Positions 14,476 through 41,227 of a stretch of DNA of 64,000 nucleotides are shown here, one piece after another. Both the position numbers and the translations under genes were made by a program. Source of the stretch: Chryseobacterium lactis (GTDB taxonomy: Bacteria; Bacteroidota; Bacteroidia; Flavobacteriales; Weeksellaceae); the NCBI RefSeq assembly GCF_003815875.1, contig NZ_CP033924.1, forward strand, positions 5,022,001-5,086,000, in the 5' to 3' direction. The notes under the pieces are model-generated. The model was not told the origin of the DNA and ran no database searches. It saw nothing but the letters and a program-made list of their open reading frames with translations. The number at the start of each line of letters is the position of its first letter. The first letter of the stretch is position 1.

Positions 14476-14548
14476 ATTTCTCACGACAGTTTGAAATTTA
14501 TATCGAAAAAAAAATGGTAATAGCCTTTAAATTTCAACTGTGAGAAAT
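14476..14548. promoter_or_regulatory. 73-bp hairpin in the leader of the MauE gene
   Basis: Outer stem ATTTCTCAC (14476-14484) / GTGAGAAAT (14540-14548) and inner stem TTGAAATTTA (14491-14500) / TAAATTTCAA (14528-14537), separated by an asymmetric internal loop. It ends 23 bp before the ATG at 14572, so it is probably in the 5' untranslated RNA or is a dimer binding site. No T tract follows. Confidence 0.5.
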
Positions 14549-14571
14549 GAAAAAGCTAAAAAACCATTGTC

Positions 14572-15018
14572 ATGCAAAAAAAGAGAATTTTTACGGAGAT
14601 AGTAGTTGTATTATTGGTCATTTTGTTCCTCTATACTGGTGTAAGCAAATTTGTTGATTTTAAGGGGTTTACTTATGATTTAAATAATCAGCCCTTTCCG
14701 AATAGCTTAACACCATTGTTAAGGTGGTTAATACCAATAACTGAAATTTCAATTGTAATTGCTCTATTATTTGAAAAAGCCAGATTGATAGGTTTATATG
14801 CATCATTGTTTTTGATGAGCTTATTTACAATTTATACAGCGCTAGTTCTATTTCATGTTTTTGAGTATGTGCCGTGTTCATGTGGAGGCGTCATAAAAAA
14901 TCTAACATGGCCACAACATTTAATTTTTAACCTTTTTTTCGTTGTGATCACTTCACTCGCTATTCGAGTAAACAAGAAAAACTTGTCAGATCATTTACTT
15001 TATAACCAGTTACAATAA
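14572..15018 (+). CDS. MauE/DoxX-family redox-associated membrane protein (module A)
   Basis: A 148-residue protein with four hydrophobic segments (about 8-22, 47-66, 73-95 and 114-132). The motif CSCGG (Cys102, Cys104) lies between the third and fourth segments, as in MauE-type proteins linked to disulfide/thiol chemistry outside the cytoplasm. It starts module A: two small secreted proteins follow on the same strand, and a sigma/FecR/SusC/SusD/thioredoxin operon converges on them. A paralogous MauE domain begins module B at 30785, with the motif in the same context (VPCSCGG). The likely role is redox support for an exported partner; that link is inferred from context. Confidence 0.8.
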   Translation: MQKKRIFTEIVVVLLVILFLYTGVSKFVDFKGFTYDLNNQPFPNSLTPLLRWLIPITEISIVIALLFEKARLIGLYASLFLMSLFTIYTALVLFHVFEYVPCSCGGVIKNLTWPQHLIFNLFFVVITSLAIRVNKKNLSDHLLYNQLQ

Positions 15019-15172
15019 TTTAGATCAGTATAAATGAATTAAAATTATTGGGTCCAAAATAAGGGGAAGCTGAAAACCTTCAACTAGAGTAAGCAACAAA
15101 TCAAAAACTTTTTATTATGAAAAATTTTAAATTATTATTAGGTGCGGCAGTAGTATTTGCCGTTGGAAGCGC
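14991..15172 (+). repeat. 182-bp direct repeat, copy 1
   Basis: Near-identical to 15667-15848 (about five mismatches, no gaps, offset 676 bp). This copy spans the last codons of the MauE gene, the spacer, and the signal-peptide codons of the first small secreted protein. Confidence 0.9.
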
Positions 15173-15386
15173 TTTTACTGCTAGCAACAAAGCTTATGCA
15201 GGAGAATATGTTTTAATCGCTCCTAATACTTATGAGCTTAAAACAAATCGACCTGCCGGAGAATGCCGAGAAATGCCAAGTCAAATTTGTGATTATACCA
15301 AAATTAATCCATCTGGCAGTAATACAGATCCAAATAACTTCACCCCTAATACGAGAAATGCCCAATGGGTTGAAGGTGAGGACTAA
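15117..15386 (+). CDS. Small secreted two-Cys protein (DUF6520-like), copy 1 of module A
   Basis: An 89-residue preprotein. The signal peptide (MKNFKLLLGAAVVFAVGSAF) is likely cut near ASNKAYA or just before it. The mature part is about 60 residues, starts GEYVLIAP, has exactly two Cys (CREMPSQIC) and ends acidic with NAQWVEGED. It shares SGSNTDPNNF and (Q/R)WVE with the copy at 15793. It resembles the short DUF6520-type proteins found next to MauE genes in Bacteroidota; the family name is from memory. The two Cys could form a disulfide handled by the MauE and thioredoxin-like proteins of the same module. Confidence 0.75.
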   Translation: MKNFKLLLGAAVVFAVGSAFTASNKAYAGEYVLIAPNTYELKTNRPAGECREMPSQICDYTKINPSGSNTDPNNFTPNTRNAQWVEGED

Positions 15387-15393
15387 AGAATAT

Positions 15394-15427
15394 TTAAGGT
15401 GCTATCATTAATGGCACCTTAAATTTT
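15394..15427 (+). terminator. Terminator after the first small secreted protein
   Basis: TTAAGGTGC (15394-15402) / GCACCTTAA (15414-15422), nine-base perfect stem with an 11-base loop, followed by ATTTT. Confidence 0.65.
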
Positions 15428-15666: not shown

Positions 15667-15848
15667 TCATTTACTTTATAACCCGCTAGAATAATTTAGA
15701 TCAGTATAAGTGAATTAAAATTATTGGGTCCAAAATAAGGGGAAGCTGAAAACCTTCAACCAGAGTAAGCAACAAATCAAAAACTTTTTATTATGAAAAA
15801 TTTTAAATTATTATTAGGTGCGGCAGTAGTATTTGCCGTTGGAAGCGC
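15667..15848 (+). repeat. 182-bp direct repeat, copy 2
   Basis: Second copy of 14991-15172. It includes a remnant of the MauE 3' end that no longer encodes anything, the leader, and the signal-peptide codons of the second small protein. Identity stops where the mature peptide begins. Confidence 0.9.
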
Positions 15849-16050
15849 ATTTACTGCAAGTAATAAAGCTGCTGGAGAATATGTGCTAATTGGTTCTACT
15901 TACCAATTAAAATCAAGTAGACCTTCGGGGGATTGTGTAACTCAGTCTAGTCAAACCTGTGATTACACTAAAATCAATCCGTCCGGTAGTAATACCGATC
16001 CTAATAATTTCCAACCTTATCACACAAATGCTAGATGGGTTGAAGAATAG
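15793..16050 (+). CDS. Small secreted two-Cys protein (DUF6520-like), copy 2 of module A
   Basis: An 85-residue paralog of the protein at 15117. The first 18 codons are identical at the DNA level; the mature part differs at many positions (GEYVLIGSTYQLKSSRPSGD) but keeps the two-Cys spacing, SGSNTDPNNF and the WVE end. So the leader is conserved and the exported part has changed. It has its own copy of the leader DNA, so it may be transcribed separately, and a shared hairpin at 16063 terminates it. Confidence 0.75.
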   Translation: MKNFKLLLGAAVVFAVGSAFTASNKAAGEYVLIGSTYQLKSSRPSGDCVTQSSQTCDYTKINPSGSNTDPNNFQPYHTNARWVEE

Positions 16051-16109: not shown

Positions 16110-17612
16110 TTAAAGAAGTGAGTTTATTAATTGAATTAAATTCATCCTATTTTTTTCATCATATGGTCTAGGCGGATTTAAACTTGCAATCTTTCCCAAC
16201 TTATCTATAATTAATACTGTTGGATATCCACGTATATTATAATGACTAATAAGTTTTTCTTCTGAACCATTTCCGTTAGTATATAAGTTTAAACTTCCTC
16301 GATGCGAATATTCTAAACTTCGCACAGATTTAATCCACTCATATTTACTCTTGTCGATACTAATATTAATAAATTTTATTTTAGGATTATCTTTATAGAT
16401 ATTATATATTTCAGTCATTTGATCGTTAAGAATACGGCAATTTGTGCAGCCTGTAAAATAAAAATCTATCAACAAAACTTTTCCTAAAAAATCACTTTGT
16501 TTTACGACGTTTCCTAGAGTATCCTGCAAAGAAAAATTATATGCTAAGCTTCCTGCCAAAGAACTATCGCGATATTTTGTTAATAAGTCAATACAGTAAG
16601 GTGTTTTAACTGAATTTGTAACTTCAATAATAATATCAGAATATTTGTCAGATTGTAATTTTTTAACAAGTAAATATGAGGTTAACAACCTATCCTGAAA
16701 TAGTCCGCTAAAATCCTTTCTAAGAAATGCAACTGCCTGAGGTGGAGGGAAGTCTTTTTTCCGTAAACCAGTTAATATAAAATCGTAGTAATAGTCGGAA
16801 TACAGAAGAATATCTCTGTCAAATTTTTGGTCGAATTTTAATAAATTTTCAGAGTAAATCTTCTTTAGTTTATTTATACAAGAATCAGCAAATTCTTTAT
16901 TTTGAGCATTAGCTTCGGAAGTATAAAAGATATAAGCTTGTTGGTAGTCATTTTTATACTTGAACGTTATATTAGCCTTTAGTAATGAATAAATTGATTT
17001 AGATAATTTATCTCGGTATTTTTCCAATGCACCTAAAGCCGTCAACTTAGAATTTTCTAATGAGACAAAAGCATTATCAAACCTTCTTTCATAGCTTGTA
17101 ATATCAGTTTTTCTTAAAGCAAAGTATTCATAACCATATATTTTCTCTAACTTTCGAACCGAATCTAAAGTTTGAACGGACAATTTTTTTAAATCTTTTT
17201 GGATATCAAAAAAGAGTTCATATTTCTCTTTACCCTTTCCGGTAACAGTAATAATGTTCCTTTCAATATTAAAAGTTAAATCATCACCAGGTTCAATTAT
17301 ATAATTATTAAATATTGTCTGCCCATTTTCTACAGATAAATCAGCATACAAAAATGATTCATTGTTCTTAAATTCAATTTTTATTCTTTCTCCAGAGTTG
17401 GAAGTTAAATTTTTATTATTAACACCTGAATTAGCACCCCATCCGTTATCCCAATAAGCTAATTTGATATTATTTTTTTTAGTTAAGTCATTTATGATAA
17501 TTCTTAAATATGCCACTTTATTGCCGCCTTTCGAATTTGTTTGAATAGTTCGAGCATTAGCATAATTTACCAAAAGAATGCCTAATATTATAAATTTGAC
17601 TATCATTTTCAT
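16110..17612 (-). CDS. TlpA/thioredoxin-like exported protein (module A)
   Basis: A 500-residue protein with a signal peptide (IVKFIILGILLVNYANA). The first 350 residues are a mixed domain of unknown fold with many Lys/Asp/Tyr. The C-terminal 135 residues are a thioredoxin fold of TlpA/AhpC-TSA type: DFYFTGCTNCRIL with redox pair Cys389/Cys392, then IKFINISID and the cis-Pro region RGYPTVLIIDKLG. It acts outside the cytoplasm as a thiol-disulfide oxidoreductase. Its ATG overlaps the SusD stop by one base (TAATG), so translation is coupled. The partner may be the two-Cys proteins encoded across the terminator; inference. Confidence 0.82.
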   Translation of the reverse strand: MKMIVKFIILGILLVNYANARTIQTNSKGGNKVAYLRIIINDLTKKNNIKLAYWDNGWGANSGVNNKNLTSNSGERIKIEFKNNESFLYADLSVENGQTIFNNYIIEPGDDLTFNIERNIITVTGKGKEKYELFFDIQKDLKKLSVQTLDSVRKLEKIYGYEYFALRKTDITSYERRFDNAFVSLENSKLTALGALEKYRDKLSKSIYSLLKANITFKYKNDYQQAYIFYTSEANAQNKEFADSCINKLKKIYSENLLKFDQKFDRDILLYSDYYYDFILTGLRKKDFPPPQAVAFLRKDFSGLFQDRLLTSYLLVKKLQSDKYSDIIIEVTNSVKTPYCIDLLTKYRDSSLAGSLAYNFSLQDTLGNVVKQSDFLGKVLLIDFYFTGCTNCRILNDQMTEIYNIYKDNPKIKFINISIDKSKYEWIKSVRSLEYSHRGSLNLYTNGNGSEEKLISHYNIRGYPTVLIIDKLGKIASLNPPRPYDEKNRMNLIQLINSLL

Positions 17613-18994
17613 TATCGAATATTTTGAGTTAATGGATGAAAATTGATTTCTACAGGAGGGATTGGGAATACATACCTTGGACTATTGGCTTCTAGAGTGT
17701 AGATATTTACGCCTATATTACGTGTTAGTTTTTTTGCAAATTTATCATCCATATTTAAACGGCGTAAATCTTCCCATCTTAAATTGGCAGTAAAGGGTAG
17801 TTCTTTTCTGCGCTCATTAATTATTAATAACAAAGCTTCAGTAGGATTTGAAGCTGTTTTATTTGAATATGTACTTCGTCCATTTTCTTTTTTCCACCTC
17901 TCTTTTAAAAGCTTGTTTAAGTCGTTCATTGCTTCAACAAAATTCCCCGATCTAGCCAATGATTCTGATCTAATCAAAAATATCTCGTTTGTAGCTATTC
18001 CACAAAATAGTGCGCCTGCTCCTGTATATCTACCACCGAAGTTAATTGCGCCATTGGTATTTTTTTTGAAAAAAATTGCCTTACGAAGATCTTCATTTTC
18101 ATATGTATCAAATAAATCTTTCATTACACATAATTCCTGTCTACTGTTAAAAGTATATGAAATAGTTTGTGCATAAAATATAATTTCAGTATTATTACCT
18201 CGAACAGTAGGAAATGGAAAATTCACAGTTGTACTTAAGGTATTGAAATCAATAAGTTCTGAATTTTTAGAAAGGACAATATCTGCAAATTCTTTAGCCT
18301 TAGTATAATTTTGCATATTAAAATATACTTTTGAAAGCATGCTTTCTGCCGCTAATTTTGTAGGCCGAGTTTTGTAACTGACTTGCAGAGGGAGTAAAGA
18401 TTCGGCTTCAATAAGATCATTAATAATTCTATCATAAGTTTCTTTTAATGTGGAACGGTTTGGCAAATCATTTACATCGGAATTTAATTTAAGGGGAAGC
18501 CCTAGATCTGAATCTGCGGTACTTTCATTGTATTGTTTCGCATATAATTGTGCTAACTGATAATATGCAAAAGCTCTAAAAAATAATGCTGTTCCTTTTA
18601 CTTCTGGTATTCGAGTATCATTAATATTTTTAATTTTTTCAATGCCATCAAGTACTACATTAGAATATTCGATAACTTGGTAAGGATAAGTCCAGTCTGG
18701 AGCAAATAACTCTCCCTCATAAATGTCGCTTGACCACTTATATGCATTTCTTTCTTGTAATGTACCACCAGAGATGGCAGTTTGATCTAAAATATAGGAA
18801 TTGTCAGCACCAATTAATCCAATTGCAGGGTATTTGGTATTCATCACATCAGTATTATCTAGTAAAGCCTGAAAATCTTCAACGGTAGATGGGATAATAT
18901 CTGATTTATTTGATTTTTTCTCTAACCATTCATCTTGCTTTTTACAACCAACAAGGATAAATGTACATATTGCATAGATTATAATATTTTTCAT
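17612..18994 (-). CDS. RagB/SusD-family lipoprotein (module A)
   Basis: A 460-residue outer-membrane lipoprotein with lipobox Cys17 (ILVGC). SusD features are the TPR-like helical frame, FFRAFAYYQLAQLY near residues 148-161 and the C-terminal RRKELPFTANLRWEDLRRLN. SusD proteins form the lid over the SusC barrel and bind the substrate. It is 8 bp downstream of its susC partner and overlaps the thioredoxin-like gene. The substrate is unknown; the neighbours point to a peptide or protein rather than a glycan, since there is no carbohydrate enzyme in the module. Confidence 0.9.
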   Translation of the reverse strand: MKNIIIYAICTFILVGCKKQDEWLEKKSNKSDIIPSTVEDFQALLDNTDVMNTKYPAIGLIGADNSYILDQTAISGGTLQERNAYKWSSDIYEGELFAPDWTYPYQVIEYSNVVLDGIEKIKNINDTRIPEVKGTALFFRAFAYYQLAQLYAKQYNESTADSDLGLPLKLNSDVNDLPNRSTLKETYDRIINDLIEAESLLPLQVSYKTRPTKLAAESMLSKVYFNMQNYTKAKEFADIVLSKNSELIDFNTLSTTVNFPFPTVRGNNTEIIFYAQTISYTFNSRQELCVMKDLFDTYENEDLRKAIFFKKNTNGAINFGGRYTGAGALFCGIATNEIFLIRSESLARSGNFVEAMNDLNKLLKERWKKENGRSTYSNKTASNPTEALLLIINERRKELPFTANLRWEDLRRLNMDDKFAKKLTRNIGVNIYTLEANSPRYVFPIPPVEINFHPLTQNIR

Positions 18995-19002: not shown

Positions 19003-22000
19003 TTATTTTAATGTTGTCCTAATACCAAATGATACTGTTGTCGGATTTGGGTAGGAATTATAACCGGAAAGGTTATATTCACTAACATCCGGATCAATTC
19101 CTTTCTTATTTGCTCGCCACACTATACCAATATTATTTATATAACTATAAATTTGTAATGAGGAAATTGGAAGATTTCTAAGTAATTCCTTATTAAAATC
19201 ATAACTAAGGCTAATATCCTGTAATCTTATATGGTCTCCTTTCTCAACAAGAGATTCAGAGCTTTGATAAAAAATATTGCGATTATAGTTGAATTCGTAT
19301 AAGACTGAGGGAACTGTAGTTCGCGTTTCATCTCCTGGGTTTTGCCATCGGTCTTGAAATTCTTGATTGGCATATCCGCTATTTACAACGTCTGACAGGT
19401 TTAATGAGGTTGACCTTCGGCGAAAGTAATATCCAAATTTATATGTAACGTTAGCGGATAAAGAGATTCCTTTAAAAGAGAAAGTGTTACGTAATGCCCC
19501 AAAATTTCTTGGTCTTGACGAACCATGATATACAATATCTTCATTATTCGAACTTGTAATTATATTGAGGTAGTCTTTACTTATAACACCATTTAAATAT
19601 CCCTGAGGATCTCCATTTGTTGGATCAAGTCCCGCTGTTTTAAAACTATATACTCCGAAAAGACTATTTCCTTCCTTGATATATAAACCATATCTTCCAG
19701 GACCATCAATATTAAGCCCTGAACTTGTTAGATATTGCGAAGTATATTTTGTGTCATAAGATATTACTTTATCTTTATTATAACTTAATAGTATAGTCGT
19801 ATTCCATTTAAAATTACCATTAAGATTTACTGAGTTTAAATTAATATCAAAACCTTTTGTCTTAACAGTTGCGGCATTTCCTTTGTAAGAAGAAAACCCG
19901 GTTGAATGTGCTAACAAAGCATCCTCGATAAGATCAGTACCCAACTTCTCATAAATTTCAAATGAACCATTCAAGCGATTACCTTTAGATGAAAAATCTA
20001 AAGCTAGATTTTTGTTTCTAATTTTCTCCCATCTTAATTCTGCGTTTGGGGCACTCGTGATGTAGGCAATTGGTAGTCCAGTAATTGGGCTGACATCATA
20101 GGTTGCCGTCAAATAGGATGAGGCATTATATACATTTCCATTATATCCAAATGATGCCCTTAGTTTTAAATAAGGTATTAACGAAAATTTATAGAACGAT
20201 TCTTTGCTGATATCATAAGCAACACCAGTTGACCAAAGTGGTGTCATTTTATCATTTGTTTTCACTCCAAAAATGTTTGCACCATCTTTTCTTCCACTCA
20301 GTGAAAAAGTATATTTACCTAAATACGTGTAAGCGCCGTTTGCATAATAAGATATATATCTATTTGTATTACCTATAATTTTCCCAAGAGGAGACGGAAG
20401 AACCGTTGATCCAAGTGCCGATGGGTTCATTGGATAAGGAATATTATAATTTAAATTAGTCACAGAAGTTCCAAACTCATCATTGTAGCCATACAACGCT
20501 TTATCAGTACTCTCACTTACTATTTCTCTTATCTCAGCTCCCGCAATTGCAGATACTAAATGTTTTTGTGAAAATTCTTTATTGAAATTCAACTGTGTTC
20601 TGAAGTTATTGGAATACAATTTTCTGTCTGTTAAATAGAGAATTCCTCCTTTTGGAAAGGGGTATGTAAATGAGCCCTCACTAGATCGCTGGCTGTACAT
20701 ATTAACGAAATTTCTCGCTTCATAACTTTCGGGACTTCTGTAACCACGATTATTTCCGAATTCATTTTCATGCTGATATTGAATTTCAGCATTTAAGAAA
20801 TCAGTGAAATTATACCGGACAATGCCTCTTATAAGGATGTTATCAGTTTTAGTACTGGTATCATAAAGGTCTCTTTCTTGAATGGGTCTATATTTCCAAT
20901 CTAAAAAGCCTAAACTTTGGCTATTTTCAAGATAACTGTCTCTTTTTCCATATGGTACCGCAAGCGGATTTTTATTATCATCAACAAAACTTATATATGG
21001 ATACGGAGAAGTGTATTGATATCCAAATTTATTCTCACTCTTTGTATATAATACAGAACCTGTAATTTCCAAATTTTTAATGGGATGATATGTATTTGTT
21101 GAATTAATAGTAAACCTATTGTTTCCAGAACCAAACAAGGTATTACGGTTTTTGTCATATCCTATAGAAAGTGAATAAATAGATTTTTCCGAACCTCCTC
21201 TAAAACCCAATGAATATTGTTGATTCATACTGGGACGATAAAAATATTCGGATGTTTGGTCGCGAACATCCACATTTCTCAATCTATTTATTTGGTCAGT
21301 AATATTCTCATTTGAAGGATCATTTCTTTGTTTCGATAAAAGCTCAACTACTGGTGATATTACAGGATAGTAATTGTTGTCGTTTAAATTGGGATCATAA
21401 TACCCCTTATTAAAAAGAAACGTTTCGACATCTATAAATTCAGAGGATTTAAGAAAATTTCTTGAATATTTTAAATTTGGCCTTGCCCCTACGGTTAAAT
21501 TTGAATTAAAATCAATCTTTAAGGGTTGATTAAATTTTCCTTTTTTGGTAGTGATTACAATGACACCATTCCCAGATCTCGAACCCCAGATCGAAGCTGC
21601 AGCAGCATCTTTAAGTACTGTGATACTTTCAATATCATTTGGATTTATATTATTAATATCTCCTTCATAGGGAAAATTGTCAAGTACAACCAGAGGATCA
21701 GCGCTAACTTTATCATCAATTGTAACTCTTCCTCTTATGCTTATTCCTAATTTTTCATTCGGAGGATTTAACCCTATTGGACCTGAAATTTTATTAAAAA
21801 TCAATCCACTTGTAACACCGTCCAGTCTGTCTAAAATATTCGTGCTAACACGTCTGTTTAATAATTGGTTATCTATTTGGACAAATGAGCCCGTTGCTCG
21901 TTCTTTAGGTATGTTTTGATATCCGGTCGAAACAACATCTACTATTCCAATAATATTATCGTTTTGATGCATAATAATATTACCTGAATTTATTACAGGA

Positions 22001-22602
22001 ACTTCTACTGGTGTATAACCGATAAATGAAACTTGAAGTACCTCGTCCTTTAATGAACCAGGGATCATAACAATTCCATTTGCATCTGTCATAAAGTTTA
22101 CATTGCTTCCTTTTACTCGAAGAGAAGCTCCGGACAACGGTTCACCCCGTTCATTAGAAACCTTTCCTCTTATGGGAGTCTGATCTTTATCTATTGGGTT
22201 TTTAGAACCTGTTTCCTTCCCCCTATCGACAGAAACTATAATTTTTCCTTCAATAGAATAATCGAACGGTTGGTCATTGAAGATTTCATCTAGAACCGCT
22301 TTTAGATCTTTTTCCTTTGCAGATATAGTGACAGCCTTAGCAATCTTCATATGCCTGCTATTTATTGAAAAAGAATAGCCCGATTGCTGGTTAATCTGGC
22401 GAATAACAGTCCTGAAAGGTGCATCTTTTTGGATCAATGTTATTTTTTGTGCAGTAAGTTTTGTGCAAGCGAGAAAAATAATCAATATAAAAAATATTAG
22501 GTTTTTCATGACTTGTCTTTTTTCTAATTGTTTTTCATTGGTTTTCCGTTTCCATAGGGGAATAGAAATCGGTTTACCATTGTCGATAATGGTATTATTC
22601 AT
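19003..22602 (-). CDS. SusC/RagA TonB-dependent transporter with STN domain (module A)
   Basis: A 1199-residue outer-membrane receptor. A pre-signal extension of about 31 residues precedes MKNLIFFILIIFLACTKLTA; the start at 22602 fits the long N-termini common in SusC, and an alternative ATG lies at 22509. Next come an STN signalling domain (about 60-120), a CarboxypepD_reg-like domain (about 143-225), the TonB plug with TTKKG, and a large beta-barrel. The STN domain is the part that contacts FecR-type regulators, which matches the fecR and sigma genes upstream. The C-terminus ends in an aromatic-rich strand, SFGIRTTLK. Confidence 0.92.
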   Translation of the reverse strand: MNNTIIDNGKPISIPLWKRKTNEKQLEKRQVMKNLIFFILIIFLACTKLTAQKITLIQKDAPFRTVIRQINQQSGYSFSINSRHMKIAKAVTISAKEKDLKAVLDEIFNDQPFDYSIEGKIIVSVDRGKETGSKNPIDKDQTPIRGKVSNERGEPLSGASLRVKGSNVNFMTDANGIVMIPGSLKDEVLQVSFIGYTPVEVPVINSGNIIMHQNDNIIGIVDVVSTGYQNIPKERATGSFVQIDNQLLNRRVSTNILDRLDGVTSGLIFNKISGPIGLNPPNEKLGISIRGRVTIDDKVSADPLVVLDNFPYEGDINNINPNDIESITVLKDAAAASIWGSRSGNGVIVITTKKGKFNQPLKIDFNSNLTVGARPNLKYSRNFLKSSEFIDVETFLFNKGYYDPNLNDNNYYPVISPVVELLSKQRNDPSNENITDQINRLRNVDVRDQTSEYFYRPSMNQQYSLGFRGGSEKSIYSLSIGYDKNRNTLFGSGNNRFTINSTNTYHPIKNLEITGSVLYTKSENKFGYQYTSPYPYISFVDDNKNPLAVPYGKRDSYLENSQSLGFLDWKYRPIQERDLYDTSTKTDNILIRGIVRYNFTDFLNAEIQYQHENEFGNNRGYRSPESYEARNFVNMYSQRSSEGSFTYPFPKGGILYLTDRKLYSNNFRTQLNFNKEFSQKHLVSAIAGAEIREIVSESTDKALYGYNDEFGTSVTNLNYNIPYPMNPSALGSTVLPSPLGKIIGNTNRYISYYANGAYTYLGKYTFSLSGRKDGANIFGVKTNDKMTPLWSTGVAYDISKESFYKFSLIPYLKLRASFGYNGNVYNASSYLTATYDVSPITGLPIAYITSAPNAELRWEKIRNKNLALDFSSKGNRLNGSFEIYEKLGTDLIEDALLAHSTGFSSYKGNAATVKTKGFDINLNSVNLNGNFKWNTTILLSYNKDKVISYDTKYTSQYLTSSGLNIDGPGRYGLYIKEGNSLFGVYSFKTAGLDPTNGDPQGYLNGVISKDYLNIITSSNNEDIVYHGSSRPRNFGALRNTFSFKGISLSANVTYKFGYYFRRRSTSLNLSDVVNSGYANQEFQDRWQNPGDETRTTVPSVLYEFNYNRNIFYQSSESLVEKGDHIRLQDISLSYDFNKELLRNLPISSLQIYSYINNIGIVWRANKKGIDPDVSEYNLSGYNSYPNPTTVSFGIRTTLK

Positions 22603-32639: not shown

Positions 32640-32647
32640 GTTCGAAG

Positions 32648-32678: not shown

Positions 32679-35182
32679 ATTTGCTTATTGATCCATGGAA
32701 CATCTTTTATATCTTTCAGAAAATAATCGAACCATTCTAAGATCTTTTCGTCCCTGTCTTTCTCCTCGAGAGGATGATGGAGAAAATCGTGATTACCATT
32801 TTTATATAAAAGGGCTATCACCTGTTTTTGATAACGTCTAAGACCAATATAAAATTCCATAACCTGGTCCAATGGCACGTTTTCATCCTTCTTTCCTCCC
32901 CATAATAAAATTGGTGATTTGACATTTTCAACATTTAAAATAGGACTATTCAGTAAATATTTTTCTTTATCTTCAGCCACTGAGTCTCCCATCTTGAACT
33001 GCCCAGTTTCATAAAAGAAATAAAACGGTTTAACATACTGATAACTATAAGAATGGTAACTGCTGATCAGATCACTGAAACCTGCTCCTGATACATATGT
33101 CTTAAAGCGCTGCGATTGTGTGGCGATGAAATTGGTTTCATAACCACCATACGAATGTCCTAAAAGCGCGATTCTATCCTGATCAATTAGAGGGTTTTTC
33201 AATAAAGCATCCAGCGCGCTATTTACGCATTCTAAAGCTGACATGCCGGGGCCATCCTTGCCTTGTTCTATATCGGGGAGATATACAAAATACCCTCGTT
33301 CCAATAAAGTCCTGATCTGGAATCCTACAGGTGATACATTATTTGGAGAAAGATAATCATTGCTTAAAGTCCGTTGTACCTGATAGATATGGACTACCAT
33401 TGGATATTTTCCCTTTGGATCATAGTCTATTGGATAGTATAAAATACCCCTTAGATTTTTTCCAACAGCTTTGAAATTATAAATTTTCTGTTTGATCTTT
33501 TGTGCTTCAACATCCTTAATTCCGGCATTGAACAATTTATTTTTATGTCCATTGACATAGGAATACAATGTAGGAGGCTGGTTGAAATTTCTTTCCAACG
33601 TATAAAAGGATGTCATATTTCTGTTGAAAAGTAGATGATCAGAGTCAATCCTGTTTTCTGTTTCCGGTACAACCTCTTTCCATTTTCCCTTGCGGTACAT
33701 ATTGTAAAAAGTTTTATTTGAATAATTATCATATACTTCCAGCAATATGGAATCTTCCGGTAAAAATGAATTTAATGTACTTTCACCAAATTCGTTAGTT
33801 TGATTTTTAATTTCAACTTTTTTTCCTTTTGCAATGCCCAAAGCGGTCAACTTCTTTCTATTGATGTCATATTTCCAGAGGTCGTCACTGCTTTCAAAAT
33901 AAATTTGATTGCTGTTTGCCGTAAAAACAGGTTTTTCAAGACCAAATTTTTCTATTAAGGCTTCTCTCTTGCCCGAAGTACTGAACAAGGACCAATTTTT
34001 ACCATCATTGCTCGCTAGGAACAACCTGCCATTCTTGGAACAAAAAAACCTATTTCCCACAAAGTCGGGTCTCCAACCTTTTGTTAAAGTAGGTATTTGT
34101 TTTAAGCTGCCGATTGCTGTTAAACTTTCTGTTGATATATCAAATATATAGGCATCATTGATATCTGGCGTAAACGTATTAAAATTGTAATCTTTTCTAG
34201 GTAGATAGGTCAGAAAATATCGAGCATTATTTAAAGATTCAAGTACATGGTTCTCCTGAATTTTTAATGACTGCAGTTTATTCGCTATCGTATCCCATAA
34301 CCAGTATTCGTTATTTACGTACATTCTTTTATGTAGGTTGACAAATGGATCATTGCCATACCATATGTCAACCAAGGAAGACTGCTCTTCGGAGAATCTT
34401 ACCCTTGAATTGATGAGAAAGTACTTTCCATTTTGAATTTCCGTCAAACTTAATTCTGATTTGCTTGGAACGTTTAATTGAATTACCTTTTTATAGTCAT
34501 GTTCTGAATCGAGTATAGTCAATTGATTATGTCCTTTCTGAATCTGAACTTCTGTAATGAGTAGCTGTTTGCCTGATGGCGTAAGTTCGATCTTTGATAT
34601 TCGATTTTCTGTTGAATATACAATTTCTTGTCTTTTACCCGTTGTTTCAAGGATCTTGGCTTTTCCTTCACTCTGCCTTACAACATATAGCTTACTTTTT
34701 GAGTCTGTTGCCATAAGACCATCAATGTCTGCCATTTCCTGTAGCTGATTGCCCGTCAGATCATAAAAAATAAGGTGCTTATCTCTGGAGTAAATGGCAT
34801 ATCTATTTAAATTATCCAGCCGATAATAATTGCTGGCATTATTATATTGGTATATTTTACCAGTCTTAAGGTTCAGAAACTGTAATTGATCGGCTTTTCT
34901 CCCAAAAACCCCTTCTTCATTAAGAAAGTCCAAAACTCCCGTCGATACAATTTTATGTATTGTCTTGTCCTTTGTGCTAACAACATAAGCCGAATCACCA
35001 CCAAGTTTATACTGCTTATTGATTCCTATCCATGTTCCTTCAGATGAAATCTTGGGAACCCCGCCCAATGTTGCAAATTTTGCCTTCCATTGGGTTAAGG
35101 TATCCCCCTGCTGTTGAGCAGGTATAAATATGAAGCCGTTAAGAATTATGGAAACCAGTAAATATTTGATCTTAATAGCCAT
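32657..35182 (-). CDS. S9-family (prolyl oligopeptidase-like) exported peptidase (module B)
   Basis: An 841-residue serine peptidase with a signal peptide (MAIKIKYLLVSIILNGFIFI). The N-terminal 570 residues are propeller-like beta repeats. The C-terminal alpha/beta-hydrolase domain has the nucleophile Ser677 in GHSYGGY, the acid Asp766 (WGGKKDENVP) and His798 (GNHDFLHH), a complete S9 triad. S9 enzymes cut or trim short peptides. The start codon overlaps the susD end by 11 bp, so it is translationally coupled as last gene of the module B operon. It takes the slot of the thioredoxin-like protein of module A. Confidence 0.9.
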   Translation of the reverse strand: MAIKIKYLLVSIILNGFIFIPAQQQGDTLTQWKAKFATLGGVPKISSEGTWIGINKQYKLGGDSAYVVSTKDKTIHKIVSTGVLDFLNEEGVFGRKADQLQFLNLKTGKIYQYNNASNYYRLDNLNRYAIYSRDKHLIFYDLTGNQLQEMADIDGLMATDSKSKLYVVRQSEGKAKILETTGKRQEIVYSTENRISKIELTPSGKQLLITEVQIQKGHNQLTILDSEHDYKKVIQLNVPSKSELSLTEIQNGKYFLINSRVRFSEEQSSLVDIWYGNDPFVNLHKRMYVNNEYWLWDTIANKLQSLKIQENHVLESLNNARYFLTYLPRKDYNFNTFTPDINDAYIFDISTESLTAIGSLKQIPTLTKGWRPDFVGNRFFCSKNGRLFLASNDGKNWSLFSTSGKREALIEKFGLEKPVFTANSNQIYFESSDDLWKYDINRKKLTALGIAKGKKVEIKNQTNEFGESTLNSFLPEDSILLEVYDNYSNKTFYNMYRKGKWKEVVPETENRIDSDHLLFNRNMTSFYTLERNFNQPPTLYSYVNGHKNKLFNAGIKDVEAQKIKQKIYNFKAVGKNLRGILYYPIDYDPKGKYPMVVHIYQVQRTLSNDYLSPNNVSPVGFQIRTLLERGYFVYLPDIEQGKDGPGMSALECVNSALDALLKNPLIDQDRIALLGHSYGGYETNFIATQSQRFKTYVSGAGFSDLISSYHSYSYQYVKPFYFFYETGQFKMGDSVAEDKEKYLLNSPILNVENVKSPILLWGGKKDENVPLDQVMEFYIGLRRYQKQVIALLYKNGNHDFLHHPLEEKDRDEKILEWFDYFLKDIKDVPWINKQIKKKAPF

Positions 35183-36542
35183 TATTCTGAGGTTTGAGAT
35201 TTAGATTGAGGAGAATTTCATTTTGGGGGATCGGCCAAAGTTTATGAAAATCCTTCCAGTTAGGCTTTGCAGTTGACAATAAATTGAGTTTATCCATTCT
35301 CTTCAGATCAAGAAACCTATGTCCTGTTTCAGTAAAGAATTCACGTCTATCTTCCAAAAGGATTTCATTAAGGAGATCAGCTTGGCTTAAGTTGGTTAAT
35401 GCCGCTAAACCTGCCCTTTGTCTTATCGAATTTAAATAAATAAGCCCTTCGGTGAGTTTACTCTGCTGAGCCAAAGATTCTGACAATAAAAGATAAGCTT
35501 CTTCCACCCTGAATATGATAGAATACTCATTAGCATTTGTATTATCGCGATTTTTGTATTTTTCAGCTCTATACCATATTGATCCATTATAGGATACTGA
35601 CGCCATCCAGTGCTGTTTTCTTAGGTCATTAGAGTTGAAGGAGTTTACGAGATTCATATTCAACGCATAAGAACTAGGCTTTGCATTTGAGAAATAGTAT
35701 AAGGTAGCCTGTTTCAGAGAAGCATTATTAATAGGTTTTAATTGCCAAAGAATGTGTTTACCTGACTTTTGAAATACTTTTGTTATATCGGTTTCTATTT
35801 GATAAAGCGAAGATTGGGTAATTTCTTTTAACAATTGTTCTGCCTGATTCCAATTTTTCTGTGCCATATAGATCTTTGCCAGTAGAAGCCTTGCTGTCAT
35901 TTTATTGGCATATATCCGTTCAGCATTTCGATAGTCATCCTGCAATAGTGTCAGGACCTGTTGAAGATCTTCTACCATTTTTTTCAATGCATCATTTGAA
36001 GGTGTTTTATTTAAAATCTGATTTATTGTGTAATCCGTTGTTTCAGGATATGGAATATCCCCCCAAAGTTGGTTCAAATAAAAAAACATTAACGTTCTAA
36101 TAAATAAAGCTTCTCCCTTCAAATACTTTTTGTCGGACATTGAAATCCCGTTAGATTTATCAACACCTTCAATAATAGCATTAGCTGTATAAATATGTTT
36201 AAAAGATGAAACCCAGATATTGTATACGGTTTGATTCGTGTCAGTTTGTTGGTTTAGATAAAGTTCCCTAGTTGGAGTAATCGTTGTACTGAATTCATCC
36301 AGTTCATCCGTATAAACGCCTAGGGCGGCATCAAGATTCACTCCTGAAATCGGGGAATTTGACATTACATCGGCATATAAAGCCGATAATGCAGCGTTAG
36401 CTGTTTGAAGATCCTGAAATACTTCGTTGCTGGCAATCTGATTATTCGGTAGATCAACGTCAATCAATTTTTCGCACGAAATCGAAAAATACAATGAGAA
36501 AGATGCGAGAATGCATGTGTATAAATATTTAAAATTTTTCAT
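35172..36542 (-). CDS. RagB/SusD-family lipoprotein (module B)
   Basis: A 456-residue outer-membrane lipoprotein with lipobox Cys23 (FSISC). It has the SusD layout: LKGEALFIRTLMFFYLNQLW near residues 139-158, TPR-like helices, and the C-terminal LEDRREFFTETGHRFLDLKR. It starts 11 bp after susC ends and overlaps the peptidase gene. It would bind the ligand at the mouth of the SusC barrel. Confidence 0.9.
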   Translation of the reverse strand: MKNFKYLYTCILASFSLYFSISCEKLIDVDLPNNQIASNEVFQDLQTANAALSALYADVMSNSPISGVNLDAALGVYTDELDEFSTTITPTRELYLNQQTDTNQTVYNIWVSSFKHIYTANAIIEGVDKSNGISMSDKKYLKGEALFIRTLMFFYLNQLWGDIPYPETTDYTINQILNKTPSNDALKKMVEDLQQVLTLLQDDYRNAERIYANKMTARLLLAKIYMAQKNWNQAEQLLKEITQSSLYQIETDITKVFQKSGKHILWQLKPINNASLKQATLYYFSNAKPSSYALNMNLVNSFNSNDLRKQHWMASVSYNGSIWYRAEKYKNRDNTNANEYSIIFRVEEAYLLLSESLAQQSKLTEGLIYLNSIRQRAGLAALTNLSQADLLNEILLEDRREFFTETGHRFLDLKRMDKLNLLSTAKPNWKDFHKLWPIPQNEILLNLNLKPQNNGY

Positions 36543-36553
36543 GAGATTAGAAA

Positions 36554-39500
36554 TTAAAAATTTAACTGTAGTCCGAAAGAGTATGTTCTTAAGGGAGGAA
36601 GAAAACCTGAGATTATTGCCTCTGGATCAACACCAAAGAATTTAGTCCATGTTATTAAATTCTGGCCCTGAAAGTAAATTTTAGCACTTTTAAAAGGACT
36701 TGACGACATCGGTATATTATAACCAAATTCTAGGTTTTTTAATCTTACAAAGGATGCATCTGAAACAGCAGCAGTACTTCCTTTAAATAAATTATGATTG
36801 AGCAAATTTTTTGATGCACTATAAGGCATATATGTTCCGTTAGGATTTTCGGCAGACCAAACATCCAGTACTTCCACAGGTTGGTTAACCATTGTACCCG
36901 GAAGAGGCATAATTGAATTTTGGTTATAGTTTTTCTTTTTGACGAATTGAAATAAAAAATATAAATCCCAATTTTTATATCGAATACTGTTATTTATGCC
37001 ACCAAAAAATTTAATTTGAAGATCTTCAATAACCTGACGGTCATCTGGAGAAGATATTTTGCCGTCTCCATTAAAATCAGTGAACTGATAAAGTCCTGTC
37101 TGCGGATTAATACCTTCCAATTGATATAGCTTAACAATCTGCGTTGAAGAGCCAATGGAATATTGACTTGCATAAGGTGAACCGGCTAGACCTGGAAATG
37201 ATAACAGTTTATTTTTAGGGAATGTTATATTAAGATTAGTTTCCCAATTAAAGTTCTTAGTTGAAACTGGTCTTGCATTTATTTCAAATTCCAGTCCGGT
37301 ATTCTGCACTGTAGCGTCCAGATTTGCTGTCACACTTGGAAATCCAGTTACGGCAGATAGTTGGTAGCCAACCAATTGATTTGAAGATCTATTACGATAA
37401 TATGCTAAATTAGTAGTAATACGGTTGTCCAAAAAACCTAGTTCAATTGCAGTTTCAAACTTTCTTGTTTTTTCCCAACTGTAATTGGGATTAAATAGTC
37501 TGGCAGGTAACAGTCCGGTAATTCCATTGTATATTAATGTTGAGGAAACATTATAATTATCCAAAAATTGAAAATCCCCGATATTATCACTTCCTGTCGA
37601 ACCATAGCTACCGCGAATCTTACCAAAAGATAACCATTTAGAATCCTTTAGAAAATTTTCCTTTGTAAAGATCCATGCGGCTCCCAACGCTCCAAAATTT
37701 GCAAATCTGTTATTAGGTCCAAAACGACTGCTCCCATCACGTCTACCAGTAACATTCAGGATATAACGATTTTTATACTGATAATTTAACCTACCAAATA
37801 ATGCGGCATATCTATATTCAATAGATGATTGGTCGCCCATTCTTATCGTTTTTGCAGCGGAAACATTTGTAATAAACTGATTGCTTTCAAATCCTATTCC
37901 TGTAATTTCATCAGTATTCCTAACATTTCTCTGAAAACTTCCCCCTATCAAAAAATCAATTTTATGGTTTCCCCAATTTTTTGACCAGTTTAATTGAGGT
38001 TCAATAATGAAAGAAAATATATCCTGATCTTTTTTTCTTGATTGTGAAGTTGCACTGGAAGCACCGCTTGCAAGGGATGGATTATTGACTGTATTGGGAA
38101 GTAGAGATAATTCATTTATTGCCGTGTAATTTAATCCTGCATTAATCTTAAATTTCATATCCGAGTAAAGCTTGTAATCAGCGTTTATATTAGTTTGAAA
38201 GAGCTTGGTATCGTTACTATAAGTGGCATTAAAGGCCGCTAAAGGATTGTTAAAAGTATTTCCGGCCCAATTTAAACTTCCATCTTCATTATAGAGCAGA
38301 GGTGATACAGGTGGTAGCGTATAACTACTGCCAGTAATATCAGTTCTAACAACATTGTTTTTCTGATTGGTAAACATATTAGATAAACTGAGCTGAAAGC
38401 GGTTATCCTTTGAACGATGTGACAGATTAGAATTAAAAGTATTGCTGAGATATTTATAACCTTGTCCAAAAGGAGTTGTCTGCTCATTGTGTCCGAGGCT
38501 GACTAAAAAACTGGTTGTTTCACTACCACCGCTCAATGAAAGTTGGGTGTTACTATAGGTTGCTTTGTTTCCGATCAATGTTTTTTCCCAATCTATTTCA
38601 TTGTTTCCCCAAGCGCCATTAAGATCATAGGCTGTTGCCGGATAGTTTACAACTCCGTCATTCAGGTAAGCTGTACGGCGCATGTTAAGGTATTGGTCCT
38701 TGTTTAATAATTTGAGGTTGGAAATAGCCTCACTTATACCGTAATTGGTTGTAAGTCGTACACTCAGTCTACCTGATTTACCTTTTTTAGTGGTTATTAA
38801 TATAACTCCGTTTGCTCCTCTGGAACCATAGATAGCAGTCGCATCAGCATCTTTTAGTACCTCAATGCTCTCGATATCACCCGGATTTATGCTATTTAAT
38901 GGATTAATCTTACCAGAAGGCATCACTGTAGCGCCGATTTGCGTGTTTTCAGCTGTTATTTCACTTAAAGGTACACCATCAACCACATAGAGTGGAAGAT
39001 TACCGTCAATCGAGGAATTCATACTTGTTCTTAAACTATTCTGTCCCCTGATCTGTATTGTAAACCCTCCACCGGGAATACCGGAATTTTGCGTGATATT
39101 AACTCCTGACATTCGGCCCTGCAAAGAGGATAATACATTCGTTACAGGCTGGTTTTCGATATCTTTTGCCTTAACCTTTGAAATACTTCCAGTGCTGTTC
39201 CTTTCGGTGACTTTATAGTATCCGGCATTTAAAGTGATTTCTTCAATTTTTGTTTCTTTACCCGCAAAAGACTCGGATTTTAATGTGTCAACAGGTAAAC
39301 TTTGATCTTGTGGAGTTATTTGGCTAATTGCTTTAATTTTCTTTTCGCGAATGACAACCGTATTATTAAAAATGGTTGTTTCAAAGGGTAATTCCTTGAA
39401 TAACTTCGCAAGGCAATCCATTAATAATTCGTTATTGCATTTTGTGCTTGGCACTTTGTAGTTTATAAATGACTTCTTTTTATAAGAAAAACGACGTATT

Positions 39501-39649
39501 TTATTTTCCTTCAAAAAGAGTTCAATTGCATCAACTGCGGGTAATGCTTCCGAATCATAATTTACTCTCATGGTAGAGAGATTCTCTTGGGCATTAAGAC
39601 CCTGCCATCCGATCAAAAAGAACACGGCGGCTTTGTACAAAATTTTCAT
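36554..39649 (-). CDS. SusC/RagA TonB-dependent transporter with STN domain (module B)
   Basis: A 1031-residue receptor with signal peptide (LYKAAVFFLIGWQGLNAQ). An STN domain (about 25-108) is visible (KEN...FETTIFNNTVVIREKK). Unlike module A it goes from the STN domain to the plug through a short linker, without a clear CarboxypepD_reg domain. The plug has the typical NVLSSLQGRMSGVNI and GPR-like IRGQNSLR, VLKDADATAIYGSRGANGV and TTKKGKSG. The barrel ends YSFGLQLNF. The STN domain again pairs with FecR and a sigma factor upstream. Confidence 0.92.
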   Translation of the reverse strand: MKILYKAAVFFLIGWQGLNAQENLSTMRVNYDSEALPAVDAIELFLKENKIRRFSYKKKSFINYKVPSTKCNNELLMDCLAKLFKELPFETTIFNNTVVIREKKIKAISQITPQDQSLPVDTLKSESFAGKETKIEEITLNAGYYKVTERNSTGSISKVKAKDIENQPVTNVLSSLQGRMSGVNITQNSGIPGGGFTIQIRGQNSLRTSMNSSIDGNLPLYVVDGVPLSEITAENTQIGATVMPSGKINPLNSINPGDIESIEVLKDADATAIYGSRGANGVILITTKKGKSGRLSVRLTTNYGISEAISNLKLLNKDQYLNMRRTAYLNDGVVNYPATAYDLNGAWGNNEIDWEKTLIGNKATYSNTQLSLSGGSETTSFLVSLGHNEQTTPFGQGYKYLSNTFNSNLSHRSKDNRFQLSLSNMFTNQKNNVVRTDITGSSYTLPPVSPLLYNEDGSLNWAGNTFNNPLAAFNATYSNDTKLFQTNINADYKLYSDMKFKINAGLNYTAINELSLLPNTVNNPSLASGASSATSQSRKKDQDIFSFIIEPQLNWSKNWGNHKIDFLIGGSFQRNVRNTDEITGIGFESNQFITNVSAAKTIRMGDQSSIEYRYAALFGRLNYQYKNRYILNVTGRRDGSSRFGPNNRFANFGALGAAWIFTKENFLKDSKWLSFGKIRGSYGSTGSDNIGDFQFLDNYNVSSTLIYNGITGLLPARLFNPNYSWEKTRKFETAIELGFLDNRITTNLAYYRNRSSNQLVGYQLSAVTGFPSVTANLDATVQNTGLEFEINARPVSTKNFNWETNLNITFPKNKLLSFPGLAGSPYASQYSIGSSTQIVKLYQLEGINPQTGLYQFTDFNGDGKISSPDDRQVIEDLQIKFFGGINNSIRYKNWDLYFLFQFVKKKNYNQNSIMPLPGTMVNQPVEVLDVWSAENPNGTYMPYSASKNLLNHNLFKGSTAAVSDASFVRLKNLEFGYNIPMSSSPFKSAKIYFQGQNLITWTKFFGVDPEAIISGFLPPLRTYSFGLQLNF

Positions 39650-39709
39650 ATTTTTGTAACGTATTTATAATTAATAATTCATCGAACAGTTATTGGTTGA
39701 ATACATTGG

Positions 39710-39729
39710 CCGACGGTCGCACCCGTCGG
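39710..39729 (-). promoter_or_regulatory. GC-rich hairpin between fecR and susC (module B)
   Basis: CCGACGG (39710-39716) / CCGTCGG (39723-39729) with a six-base loop, in an AT-rich spacer of 159 bp. It has the same place as the module A hairpin at 22657 but a different sequence, which suggests a kept function such as attenuation. Confidence 0.6.
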
Positions 39730-39808
39730 TCATTTTCTTATTCAACATTTAAATTTTCGGCTTCACGTGTCGTCACTGAGCGAGGGCATAATTAAAGCCC
39801 ATAGTTTT

Positions 39809-40615
39809 TCACTCCAATTGAAATGTTTTATCATTGATTTGTTTTATTTTGAAATCCAGCTGGAAAGCAATGATTTCAATAAGGGATTTAGCGGTAGAAT
39901 TAGTAGATGAAATCGTAATCTTAACCACCTTATCTTTATCAGGGATTATCATTTTTACGTTATAGGTTTCTTCTATGATTTGGGCTACTTTACTTAGTGA
40001 GCAATCGTTGAAGGATAAACTTGATTTAAGTTGAGATTCTGTTGACCGTGATGTGGCAGATATTCTTGCAACTTGTACAGTTCCCAAATTTGAAAACGTT
40101 TCTTTTGGTTTTAGTTCAAATGATTCGTTAGGTTTTTCAGATCTATAGACCAACACCTTACCTTCATACAGGTCAACACTGAAAGATTTTTCATTTTGAT
40201 AAATCTTAAAAACGGTTCCCAATACTTTAGTCTCATAATTTCTACCATGAACAATAAATGGATGTTCTTTTGATTTAGAAATTTTAAAGATTGCGTCTCC
40301 ATCAAGTGTAACTTCACGTGTATCTGAAGGAAATGACTTTTCAACAGTCAGCTTCGCTCCTTTTTGTAAAATTACTTCTGATTTGTCAGGCAGTAAGACC
40401 TTACGAGGATCAGAAACGGCCATATAGACATCTGGCTTAATCAAAAAATTATAGCCTAAAACGCTACCACTTAAAATCACGACTGCAGCAATGCCGCCGT
40501 ACATTATATTTTTACGATTTCTTTTTTGCTTTTCTTTACGACGAATAGCGATTAAAGCATTTGTCCATACTTTATTCTCTTCTTCCTCTGTGAGATAGGG
40601 AAAATTGTCTTTCAT
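39809..40615 (-). CDS. FecR-family anti-sigma factor (module B)
   Basis: A 268-residue protein, shorter than the module A FecR. Cytoplasmic part 1-35, membrane segment about 38-60 (IMYGGIAAVVILSGSVLGYN), FecR domain with LPDKSEVILQKGAKLTVEKS and LDGDAIFKISKSKEHPFIVH, and a C-terminal DUF4974-like domain (SFNDCSLSKVAQIIEETYNV). It holds the sigma factor encoded 87 bp upstream until the receptor signals. Confidence 0.9.
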   Translation of the reverse strand: MKDNFPYLTEEEENKVWTNALIAIRRKEKQKRNRKNIMYGGIAAVVILSGSVLGYNFLIKPDVYMAVSDPRKVLLPDKSEVILQKGAKLTVEKSFPSDTREVTLDGDAIFKISKSKEHPFIVHGRNYETKVLGTVFKIYQNEKSFSVDLYEGKVLVYRSEKPNESFELKPKETFSNLGTVQVARISATSRSTESQLKSSLSFNDCSLSKVAQIIEETYNVKMIIPDKDKVVKITISSTNSTAKSLIEIIAFQLDFKIKQINDKTFQLE

Positions 40616-40702
40616 AAAAGAGCCTTTATTATGTATAGGAGAACGGAGGAAAAAACCACACGGTTTTTATGAAAAATTAACTTATTTTATGATACTTTAA
40701 CA

Positions 40703-41227
40703 TCATTTAGTAATTTTCACTTTGTCTCTCAGGTAGATCATAGATTGATGTATATGCTTTTCAACCGTTCTTTTGGAGATATTGAAATTAGCGGCAATTT
40801 TCTCTTGCGTGACACCCTCTATTTTATTCATTTTGAAAATTTTTCTACGAAGCGGAGGAAATAACTCTTCAATTGCTGTTTCTATTTCTGAGAGATTTCG
40901 CTCCTTATTTTCTGCAATGATTAAATCTTCATGCGAAGTATCGGAAAAATGTAAGGGTAGATCGCTAGTTTTATCGATTTTTGCGTTCCTATAAAAATGT
41001 GCTATTTCCTGTTGGCAGGTTTTTACAACTATGCTTTCAATATTGCCAGCATCCAGTTTAGACCGATATTCCCATATATGAATAATGACATTCTGAAAGA
41101 CATCCAAAACATCGTCCCTATTATTGATCTTTTTATAAATGAGAGAAAATATTAGTGGATTAAATTTATGAAGAAGCTTATGATATTGTTGTTCTTCAAT
41201 TCTGATATGTCGGTTAAGAGACCACAT
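40703..41227 (-). CDS. ECF RNA polymerase sigma factor (module B)
   Basis: A 174-residue sigma-70-like protein. Region 2 is at about 22-80 (RDDVLDVFQNVIIHIWEYRS) and region 4 at about 118-168 (LFPPLRRKIFKMNKIEGVTQ, ISKRTVEKHIHQSMIYLRDK). It is first gene of the module B operon. The folded segment at 41438-41600 lies 210 bp upstream and could be part of its leader region or belong to the divergent gene. Confidence 0.9.
   Translation of the reverse strand: MWSLNRHIRIEEQQYHKLLHKFNPLIFSLIYKKINNRDDVLDVFQNVIIHIWEYRSKLDAGNIESIVVKTCQQEIAHFYRNAKIDKTSDLPLHFSDTSHEDLIIAENKERNLSEIETAIEELFPPLRRKIFKMNKIEGVTQEKIAANFNISKRTVEKHIHQSMIYLRDKVKITK

Follow-up and report, generated by a model that had tools for sequence, protein, structure and literature searches.

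Among the known systems closest to the gene units described here are agr and ComQXPA; SusC/SusD pairs, which the units contain, abound in Bacteroidota and are generally interpreted as nutrient importers. The units were analyzed in a 64,000-nt stretch of Chryseobacterium lactis DNA (NZ_CP033924.1, positions 5,022,001 to 5,086,000; hereafter the window), part of a 5.6-Mb single-contig genome, in which two modules each set a MauE-family gene and genes for small exported Cys proteins against a convergent SusCD operon. In staphylococci, agrB, agrD and agrC form one hypervariable region between conserved parts (as given in an excerpt of PMC10482373). The modules resemble agr in joining a maturation membrane protein, a small exported putative ligand and a receptor within one variable region. 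They differ in that the putative ligand has Cys pairs and is preceded by a Sec-type signal, the receptor would be an outer-membrane SusCD transporter, a peptidase or thioredoxin-domain protein lies inside the block, and sensing varies by subset.

Four further described systems were compared. Like HasA-HasR-HasI-HasS, which comprises a secreted protein, a TonB-dependent receptor, an extracytoplasmic function (ECF) sigma factor and an anti-sigma factor (excerpt of PMC9249621), the modules would combine such components; however, no type I exporter appears in the locus maps, SusCD takes the place of HasR, the MauE-propeller protein lacks a counterpart in Has, and the sigma factor is missing from most modules. 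FecIRA is matched in both window modules by an ECF sigma factor, FecR and an STN-like receptor N-terminus, but no more than 26 of 115 modules have FecR together with the STN-like segment, and the gene for the presumed ligand lies in the immediate neighbourhood. With the mau cluster the modules have in common that a member of the MauE family is encoded close to a small exported Cys protein and that one class includes a thioredoxin-like protein. MauE has also been placed near predicted precursors of ribosomally synthesized and post-translationally modified peptides in Streptomyces (excerpt of PMC7794033). The NVEALA proteins of Bacteroidota with DUF4221/TolB-like propellers differ from the modules, given that no SusC/SusD was present in the three stretches examined. 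Separately, in 11 of 30 loci (L209-L238) a DUF4221 propeller was observed to adjoin a small exported Cys protein, and two further DUF4221 loci (L231, L233) held a GG-leader-like Cys peptide instead. Among 20 window proteins scanned with Pfam, there was no AgrB or histidine kinase, no methylamine dehydrogenase subunit and, in agreement with the preliminary description of this DNA, no carbohydrate enzyme, such as would accompany SusCD in a polysaccharide utilization locus.

Both modules were located where that description had placed them, and in the same order and orientation: MauE and the small proteins on the plus strand, and the exported enzyme, SusD, SusC, FecR and sigma factor on the minus strand. 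Module 1 consists of a short MauE, two DUF6520 proteins, a thioredoxin-domain protein, SusD, SusC, FecR and an ECF sigma factor, whereas in module 2 MauE is fused to a propeller and a single DUF6520 protein and an S9 peptidase are encoded next to it, followed by SusD, SusC, FecR and a sigma factor. The exported enzyme reported as the last gene of each operon was present twice and can now be specified as two different proteins; MauE was likewise confirmed in both modules, with CSCGG in module 1, but the propeller fused to it in module 2 had been overlooked.

We consider it probable on balance that each module is the maker and taker of one cognate exported mini-protein, most likely for self or kin recognition or for signalling. 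On the maker side, the small protein would exit by its Sec-type signal peptide (read from the sequence), the PCxC cysteines of MauE would oxidize it to the disulfide form, in the four-Cys class the fused propeller would hold its particular small protein, and secretion would proceed beyond the outer membrane. On the taker side, a dedicated SusC-SusD pair would bind and import it, and the periplasmic peptidase or thioredoxin-domain protein, judged by its position, would then dismantle it. Receptor occupancy may be read in one subset by the STN-like SusC, FecR and the ECF sigma factor, and in another subset an AraC-TPR regulator and a small lipoprotein would take over control. The extracytoplasmic parts expected to touch the ligand would form a specificity block, recombined at conserved ends given by the MauE membrane part on one side and by the FecR N-terminal half or the SusC N-terminus on the other. 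We favour signalling or self-recognition because Cys residues are nearly all that the ligand types have in common and because the parts predicted to touch the ligand change together; a carrier role ranks next.

That the SusCD receptor has the small protein as its cognate ligand is indicated most strongly by the mosaic build of this block. The same integrative and conjugative element (ICE) region, both modules included, is present in C. elymi (L126) and C. lathyri (L127). Between them, nucleotide identity was mostly 91-99% from SusC 1 through the coupling protein, the HTH gene and the MauE membrane part (exceptions were one comparison interval in sigma 1, 88%, and the interval holding the junction, 85%). 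It fell to 47-74% across the propeller, small protein, S9 peptidase, SusD, SusC and FecR C-terminal half, and was back at 97-98% in the FecR N-terminus and sigma factor. The module 2 proteins were 94% identical in the first 150 residues of MauE and 50% in the propeller, 35% in the mature small protein, 39% in S9, 59% in SusD and 64% in SusC; at the protein level the switch points lay just beyond the final membrane helix of MauE and, in FecR, past about residue 140, and the edges of the block are known to within some tens of bases.

The reciprocal arrangement was found between a locus of the C. lactis genome (L046) and a Sphingobacterium metagenome-assembled genome (L158): the block was 94-99% identical at the nucleotide level, one FecR interval was at 86%, and the FecR N-terminus and sigma factor that follow were at 55-67%. 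About 10 kb of these two loci were mostly 94-99% identical. This likeness may reflect a recent transfer between orders or a binning error, the latter because L158 comes from a metagenome-assembled genome. Three further pairs (L147/L156, L174/L185, L182/L197) showed high identity at the MauE membrane part and the SusC N-terminal end, with about 45-70% between; all three switched at the same MauE junction and near the SusC N-terminus, and the first two are paralogues within one Empedobacter and one Chryseobacterium strain, respectively. Among the 30 pairs with MauE membrane parts at least 82% identical, propeller identity was at most 50% in seven and at least 78% in 23, with none between, the seven not being independent (three derive from the window, L126 and L127, and two share L185). 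Module 1 is mosaic in a different way: most of its SusC barrel was 94-99% identical to that of L127's ICE, whereas the thioredoxin gene, SusD 1 and FecR 1 were at about 50-75%. Sequence comparison shows mosaicism with conserved ends and an agr-like contiguous variable block between conserved flanks, the ligand-facing part of which is predicted. The earlier proposal that the small protein is matched to the SusCD receptor remains the best reading and is now backed by block exchange.

The unit was found to be conserved far outside the ICE of the window, so its co-occurrence is not confined to that element, in line with the view that it is a real unit: the convergent design of MauE and a small Cys protein facing a peptidase or thioredoxin-domain protein, SusD and SusC recurs across Bacteroidota. 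Of 395 Bacteroidota genomes, 32 had a DUF6520 match at E <= 0.001, and 25 of these exceeded the family cut-off. The matches gave 44 places, of which three lie in the window, 37 were fetched and four were left out (G295, G160, G092, G159); 35 of the 36 places fetched from other genomes had MauE and SusD. Four loci of the C. lactis genome were added to the locus set. When named genomes were searched with an alignment of MauE that drew on the PCSCGG stretch but not on DUF6520, 553 loci were obtained, and the best 80 included Chryseobacterium, Epilithonimonas, Kaistella, Cloacibacterium, Empedobacter, Flavobacterium, Myroides, Aequorivita, Sphingobacterium, Pedobacter, Chitinophaga, Draconibacterium and other genera. 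SusD converged on MauE in 72 of these 80, and five of the eight exceptions lay less than 3.5 kb from a contig edge.

Altogether SusD was kept in 122 of 130 MauE loci, with five of the eight misses at contig ends. This set, mapped with a crude gene caller, includes duplicates (L066 is the same locus as L129, and L053 and L054 are nearly identical), its members L050-L085 were chosen by DUF6520, and MauE scores weaker than 1e-8 with our own model were left out. In the 111 loci with a MauE-propeller fusion, SusD converged on MauE in 105 (three of the six misses within 3.5 kb of a contig end), and a script detected the small open reading frame (ORF) in 106; four of the other five have it by eye, and the remaining one, L129, duplicates one of those four. 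The script required a signal-like start and at least two Cys for the 130-locus tally, or four Cys for the identity and 92-locus tallies. As a control, the next 40 best MauE matches were inspected: SusD lay within 8 kb in 10 of 10 with PCxC and in 0 of 30 without it, where [C]GC[FY] stands at the motif position (at five of the 30, L098, L109, L117, L118 and L123, the contig breaks off before the 8 kb are reached). Since the DUF6520 loci had already been taken, small proteins beside the control MauE genes are either missed by Pfam or non-existent. The C. lactis genome has 11 MauE-family matches, five with PCxC and six without, and 20 SusD-like_3 matches in 5.6 Mb; all five PCxC genes adjoin SusD, whereas the sixth-best match, without PCxC, does not. 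The adjacency of PCxC MauE and SusD is not due to chance.

Two classes of module exist. The 111 fusion loci contained an S9 peptidase in 105 and a thioredoxin-domain protein in none; the 19 loci with short MauE contained a thioredoxin-domain protein in 15 (four of the 15 so labelled were negative for the CxxC pattern) and S9 in none. The S9 catalytic residues Ser677, Asp766 and His798 (module 2 numbering) were kept in at least 98% of 92 loci. The peptidase position can be filled otherwise, by a Met-zincin in L050, and in L078 a subtilase adjoins the thioredoxin protein; unrelated peptidases therefore occupy one position. The lasso peptide isopeptidase model NF033523 gave 49.6 bits against a cut-off of 400. 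In an alignment of 25 MauE proteins, P103, C104, C106, W115 and N122 (MauE 1 numbering) were among the invariant columns, and the short MauE of module 1 is probably a thiol-redox membrane protein. Profile similarity between the propellers of the MauE fusions and the DUF4221/TolB-like propellers of the NVEALA loci was not significant.

All three small proteins of the window scored above the DUF6520 (PF20130) cut-off of 25.4 bits (26.2, 31.4 and 39.8). Two Cys were common to all 13 aligned small proteins of the thioredoxin class, and four Cys were invariant in all 24 aligned of the S9 class. The same four were found in an alignment of 88 rows, where they and one signal-peptide Ala were the only invariant columns; the count of exactly four Cys in 92 of 92 was selected by the script, but the alignment of 24 and, in part, that of 88 were not Cys-selected. 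From residue 25, the mature protein has 56-73 residues and a median mass of 7.0 kDa, corresponding to roughly 8,400 cubic angstroms. Compared with the 11,500 cubic angstroms of the RagAB cavity (excerpt of PMC11817032), this volume suggests that a SusCD cavity could accommodate it. Pro was among the last three residues in 56 of 92 small proteins, against 14.5 expected from composition. Flavobacterium johnsoniae is also on record as having a relative of the small protein.

These data bear on the carrier explanation, in which the secreted small protein binds a nutrient or cofactor, SusCD retrieves the complex and the peptidase or thioredoxin-domain protein frees the cargo. It has a precedent in HasA/HasR with HasI/HasS, a secreted protein and TonB receptor with ECF sigma and anti-sigma factors (excerpt of PMC9249621), and the architecture of the taker operon is that of an uptake operon. 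The four Cys could themselves bind metal, but the 88 small proteins have no invariant His, Met, Asp or Glu for a common metal or heme, and the types are alike in little beyond Cys (median mature identity 0.26). No HasA-like fold was recognized: Pfam gave DUF6520 only, and a fold search with the structural model, a small beta fold of moderate confidence (pLDDT 70), returned no relative at E <= 0.001. We regard the carrier explanation as unlikely.

Partial correlations with 300 permutations were calculated for 87 non-redundant S9 modules. With the other parts held constant, the mature small protein was best tracked by the propeller (0.20, reached in 0/300 permutations), followed by its own signal (0.16, 0/300), SusD (0.09, 0/300) and SusC (0.08, 8/300), whereas the MauE membrane part (0.04, 47/300) and S9 (-0.03, 243/300) made no contribution. 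Among 18 pairs with mature identity of at least 80%, SusC was also at least 80% identical in 15; the remaining three, with mature identity of 1.0 and low SusC identity, were judged alignment artefacts from reading the sequences. In 8 of the 15 close pairs, the mature protein was 94-100% identical while S9 stood at 77-91% and SusD at 82-94%. That observation, the lead of the propeller over SusC, the separate convergent gene pair formed by the small protein and MauE, and the small Cys proteins that adjoin propellers without SusC/SusD (NVEALA) all speak against the small protein being an accessory factor of SusCD, that is, an assembly factor or third subunit, with phage or immune attack on SusC driving the diversity and the neighbouring genes hitchhiking. 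In favour of this reading, four alleles of the SusCD-type pair RagAB exist in P. gingivalis (excerpt of PMC11817032), and passenger genes between the breakpoints would appear swapped too. An accessory role is judged rather improbable.

Several results weigh against the maker-and-taker explanation. The partial correlations are small, and across the 306 pairs whose mature identity exceeded 0.4, S9 had the highest plain correlation (0.48; signal 0.45, SusC 0.43, propeller 0.41, SusD 0.40). In eight pairs SusC was at least 80% identical and mature identity was lower, and in three of the 15 close pairs (L132/L154, L132/L171, L154/L171) the mature protein was at 62-70% against 78-87% for SusD and SusC. 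Selection acting on SusC alone could have carried along the other genes that lie between the breakpoints. Three loci (L138, L143, L195) have MauE and the small protein with no convergent SusD within reach, possibly as producers without a receiver, and a DUF6520 match of 28.5 bits (L072) had neither MauE nor SusD among its neighbours. Sigma and FecR are missing from most modules, and no promoter motif common to the upstream regions of MauE and SusC was found.

A polymorphic, cysteine-bearing, exported and ICE-borne small protein might also act in antagonism, as a bacteriocin-like toxin entering rivals through SusCD, with the peptidase or thioredoxin-domain protein protecting the producer. A periplasmic protease could serve as immunity, but no other recurrent gene is a candidate for that role in the locus maps, no PADLOC model matched among nine proteins of the region, and SusD was retained at nearly all MauE loci, as given above. 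This explanation is considered very improbable.

Regulation is interchangeable or optional between modules. ECF sigma and FecR were confirmed by Pfam in both window modules. In place of the STN domain of the preliminary description, SusC has an STN-like N-terminal segment in both; Pfam scored STN just under the cut-off in module 1 (28.2 versus 28.4 bits) and gave no match in module 2, whose L127 counterpart had E 6.4e-5, also below the cut-off. FecIRA-type signalling, which had been taken as the core, did not prove to be so: among 115 modules with full SusC, FecR occurred in 27, the STN-like segment, defined by similarity to the window's own N-termini, in 26 of these 27 and in 0 of the 88 others, and neither in 88; FecR alone was found once (L125, SusC of 927 amino acids). 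An AraC-TPR gene lay upstream of MauE in 41 of the 115, one of which (L048) also has FecR. Module 1 of the window has both kinds of regulator, with the AraC-TPR gene beyond sigma, and this gene and its divergent small lipoprotein also belong to the recurrent set.

The AraC-TPR regulator (window, L048, L126-L130 and others) reads as a periplasmic TPR part, one membrane helix and a cytoplasmic HTH, and the divergent lipoprotein of about 80 residues ends in the conserved tail DPPxKDxxxW[KR]. Together they could be a peptide-sensing pair of their own. The tail pattern was matched beside 38 of 60 AraC-TPR genes across loci; four of the 38 matches (L163, L164, L168, L170) are a different 55-residue ORF, although L163 and L170 do carry the lipoprotein. 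The C. lactis genome has 12 matches to the AraC-TPR protein, with the tail-bearing lipoprotein beside two, both at MauE modules. At FecR-type loci, a conserved 23-codon ORF (MIKHFNWxxxLWxxx...) overlaps the FecR stop and is followed, ahead of SusC, by a hairpin, GACCGACGG..CCGTCGGTC. By pattern, 16 of 28 FecR-type modules carried the ORF, as against none of the other modules listed; ORF and hairpin are possibly a leader peptide with attenuator or an internal terminator.

Table 1. Features of the two modules and their surroundings (window positions).
Feature	Position	Strand	Basis
MauE 1 (short form, 148 aa, PCSCGG)	14572..15018	+	Pfam PF07291 113.5 bits, E 1.1e-32
Small exported protein 1a (DUF6520, 2-Cys type)	15117..15386	+	Pfam; alignment
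Small exported protein 1b (tandem copy of 1a, 79% identity)	15793..16050	+	Pfam; alignment
Exported protein with C-terminal thioredoxin/TlpA-like domain, CTNC	16110..17612	-	Pfam Thioredoxin_8 3.3e-14; motif
SusD 1	17612..18994	-	Pfam 6e-35
SusC 1, STN-like N-terminus	19003..22602	-	TIGR04056 507 bits; STN 28.2 bits, cut-off 28.4
FecR 1	22725..23870	-	Pfam
ECF sigma 1	23935..24519	-	Pfam
AraC-type regulator with TPRs	24626..26371	-	HTH_18 31.5 bits, under its cut-off; signal-TPR-TM-HTH order by eye
Small lipoprotein, conserved tail DPPxKxxxxWK, divergent from AraC-TPR gene	26620..26883	+	pattern
AraC-like HTH protein upstream of MauE 2	29862..30644	+	HTH_18 23.4 bits, below cut-off
MauE 2 whole gene, 531 aa, MauE plus C-terminal beta-propeller	30782..32377	+	Pfam E 6.6e-30
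MauE 2, membrane part, residues 1 to about 180 (conserved flank at putative recombination boundary)	30785..31324	+	sequence comparison
Beta-propeller fused to MauE 2, start of variable block	31325..32377	+	
Small exported protein 2 (DUF6520, 4-Cys type)	32379..32639	+	Pfam E 6.1e-10; alignments
Exported S9 peptidase, Ser677/Asp766/His798	32657..35182	-	Pfam 1e-25
SusD 2	35172..36542	-	Pfam
SusC 2	36554..39649	-	TIGR04056 651 bits
23-codon ORF overlapping FecR 2 stop, then GC hairpin	39763..39834	-	
FecR 2; C-terminal half inside variable block, N-terminal half outside	39809..40615	-	Pfam; sequence comparison
ECF sigma 2	40703..41227	-	Pfam
Putative specificity block (propeller, small protein, S9, SusD, SusC, FecR C-terminal half), edges approximate	31325..40195	.	

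The ICE context of the window was recognized by homologues of TopB, the type IV coupling protein (T4CP; YWFCY coupling protein), TraG and TraJ. Downstream of module 2, the ICE also holds a Tox-REase-7 domain protein (37.5 bits; window 43226-44317), and a TPR protein with a LuxR-type HTH lies near the left end (window 403-1821).

A literature search, whose coverage excluded most subscription journals, returned no description of the module. DUF6520, NVEALA and DUF4221 were mentioned nowhere in the literature searched, the titles listed for MauE with SusC in Bacteroidetes held nothing on the subject, and queries for a peptide pheromone with a TonB receptor and for the SusD/FecR/S9/DoxX combination in Chryseobacterium gave no matches. 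Tentatively, the modules may represent a new polymorphic recognition class in Bacteroidota, in which a disulfide-locked mini-protein, matured by a MauE-propeller protein, would be the private key of a SusCD pair; blocks would be swapped between species, partly on conjugative elements, and cells sharing a block would recognize each other or their product. If the maker-and-taker explanation is true, some SusCD pairs would be receptors for self-made proteins, and a subset recognizable by an adjacent PCxC MauE gene has so far been misinterpreted. DUF6520, the PCxC MauE genes and perhaps the NVEALA/propeller pairs would thereby gain a function, and the specificity of ligand and receptor would be directly testable, because nature supplies the swapped blocks.

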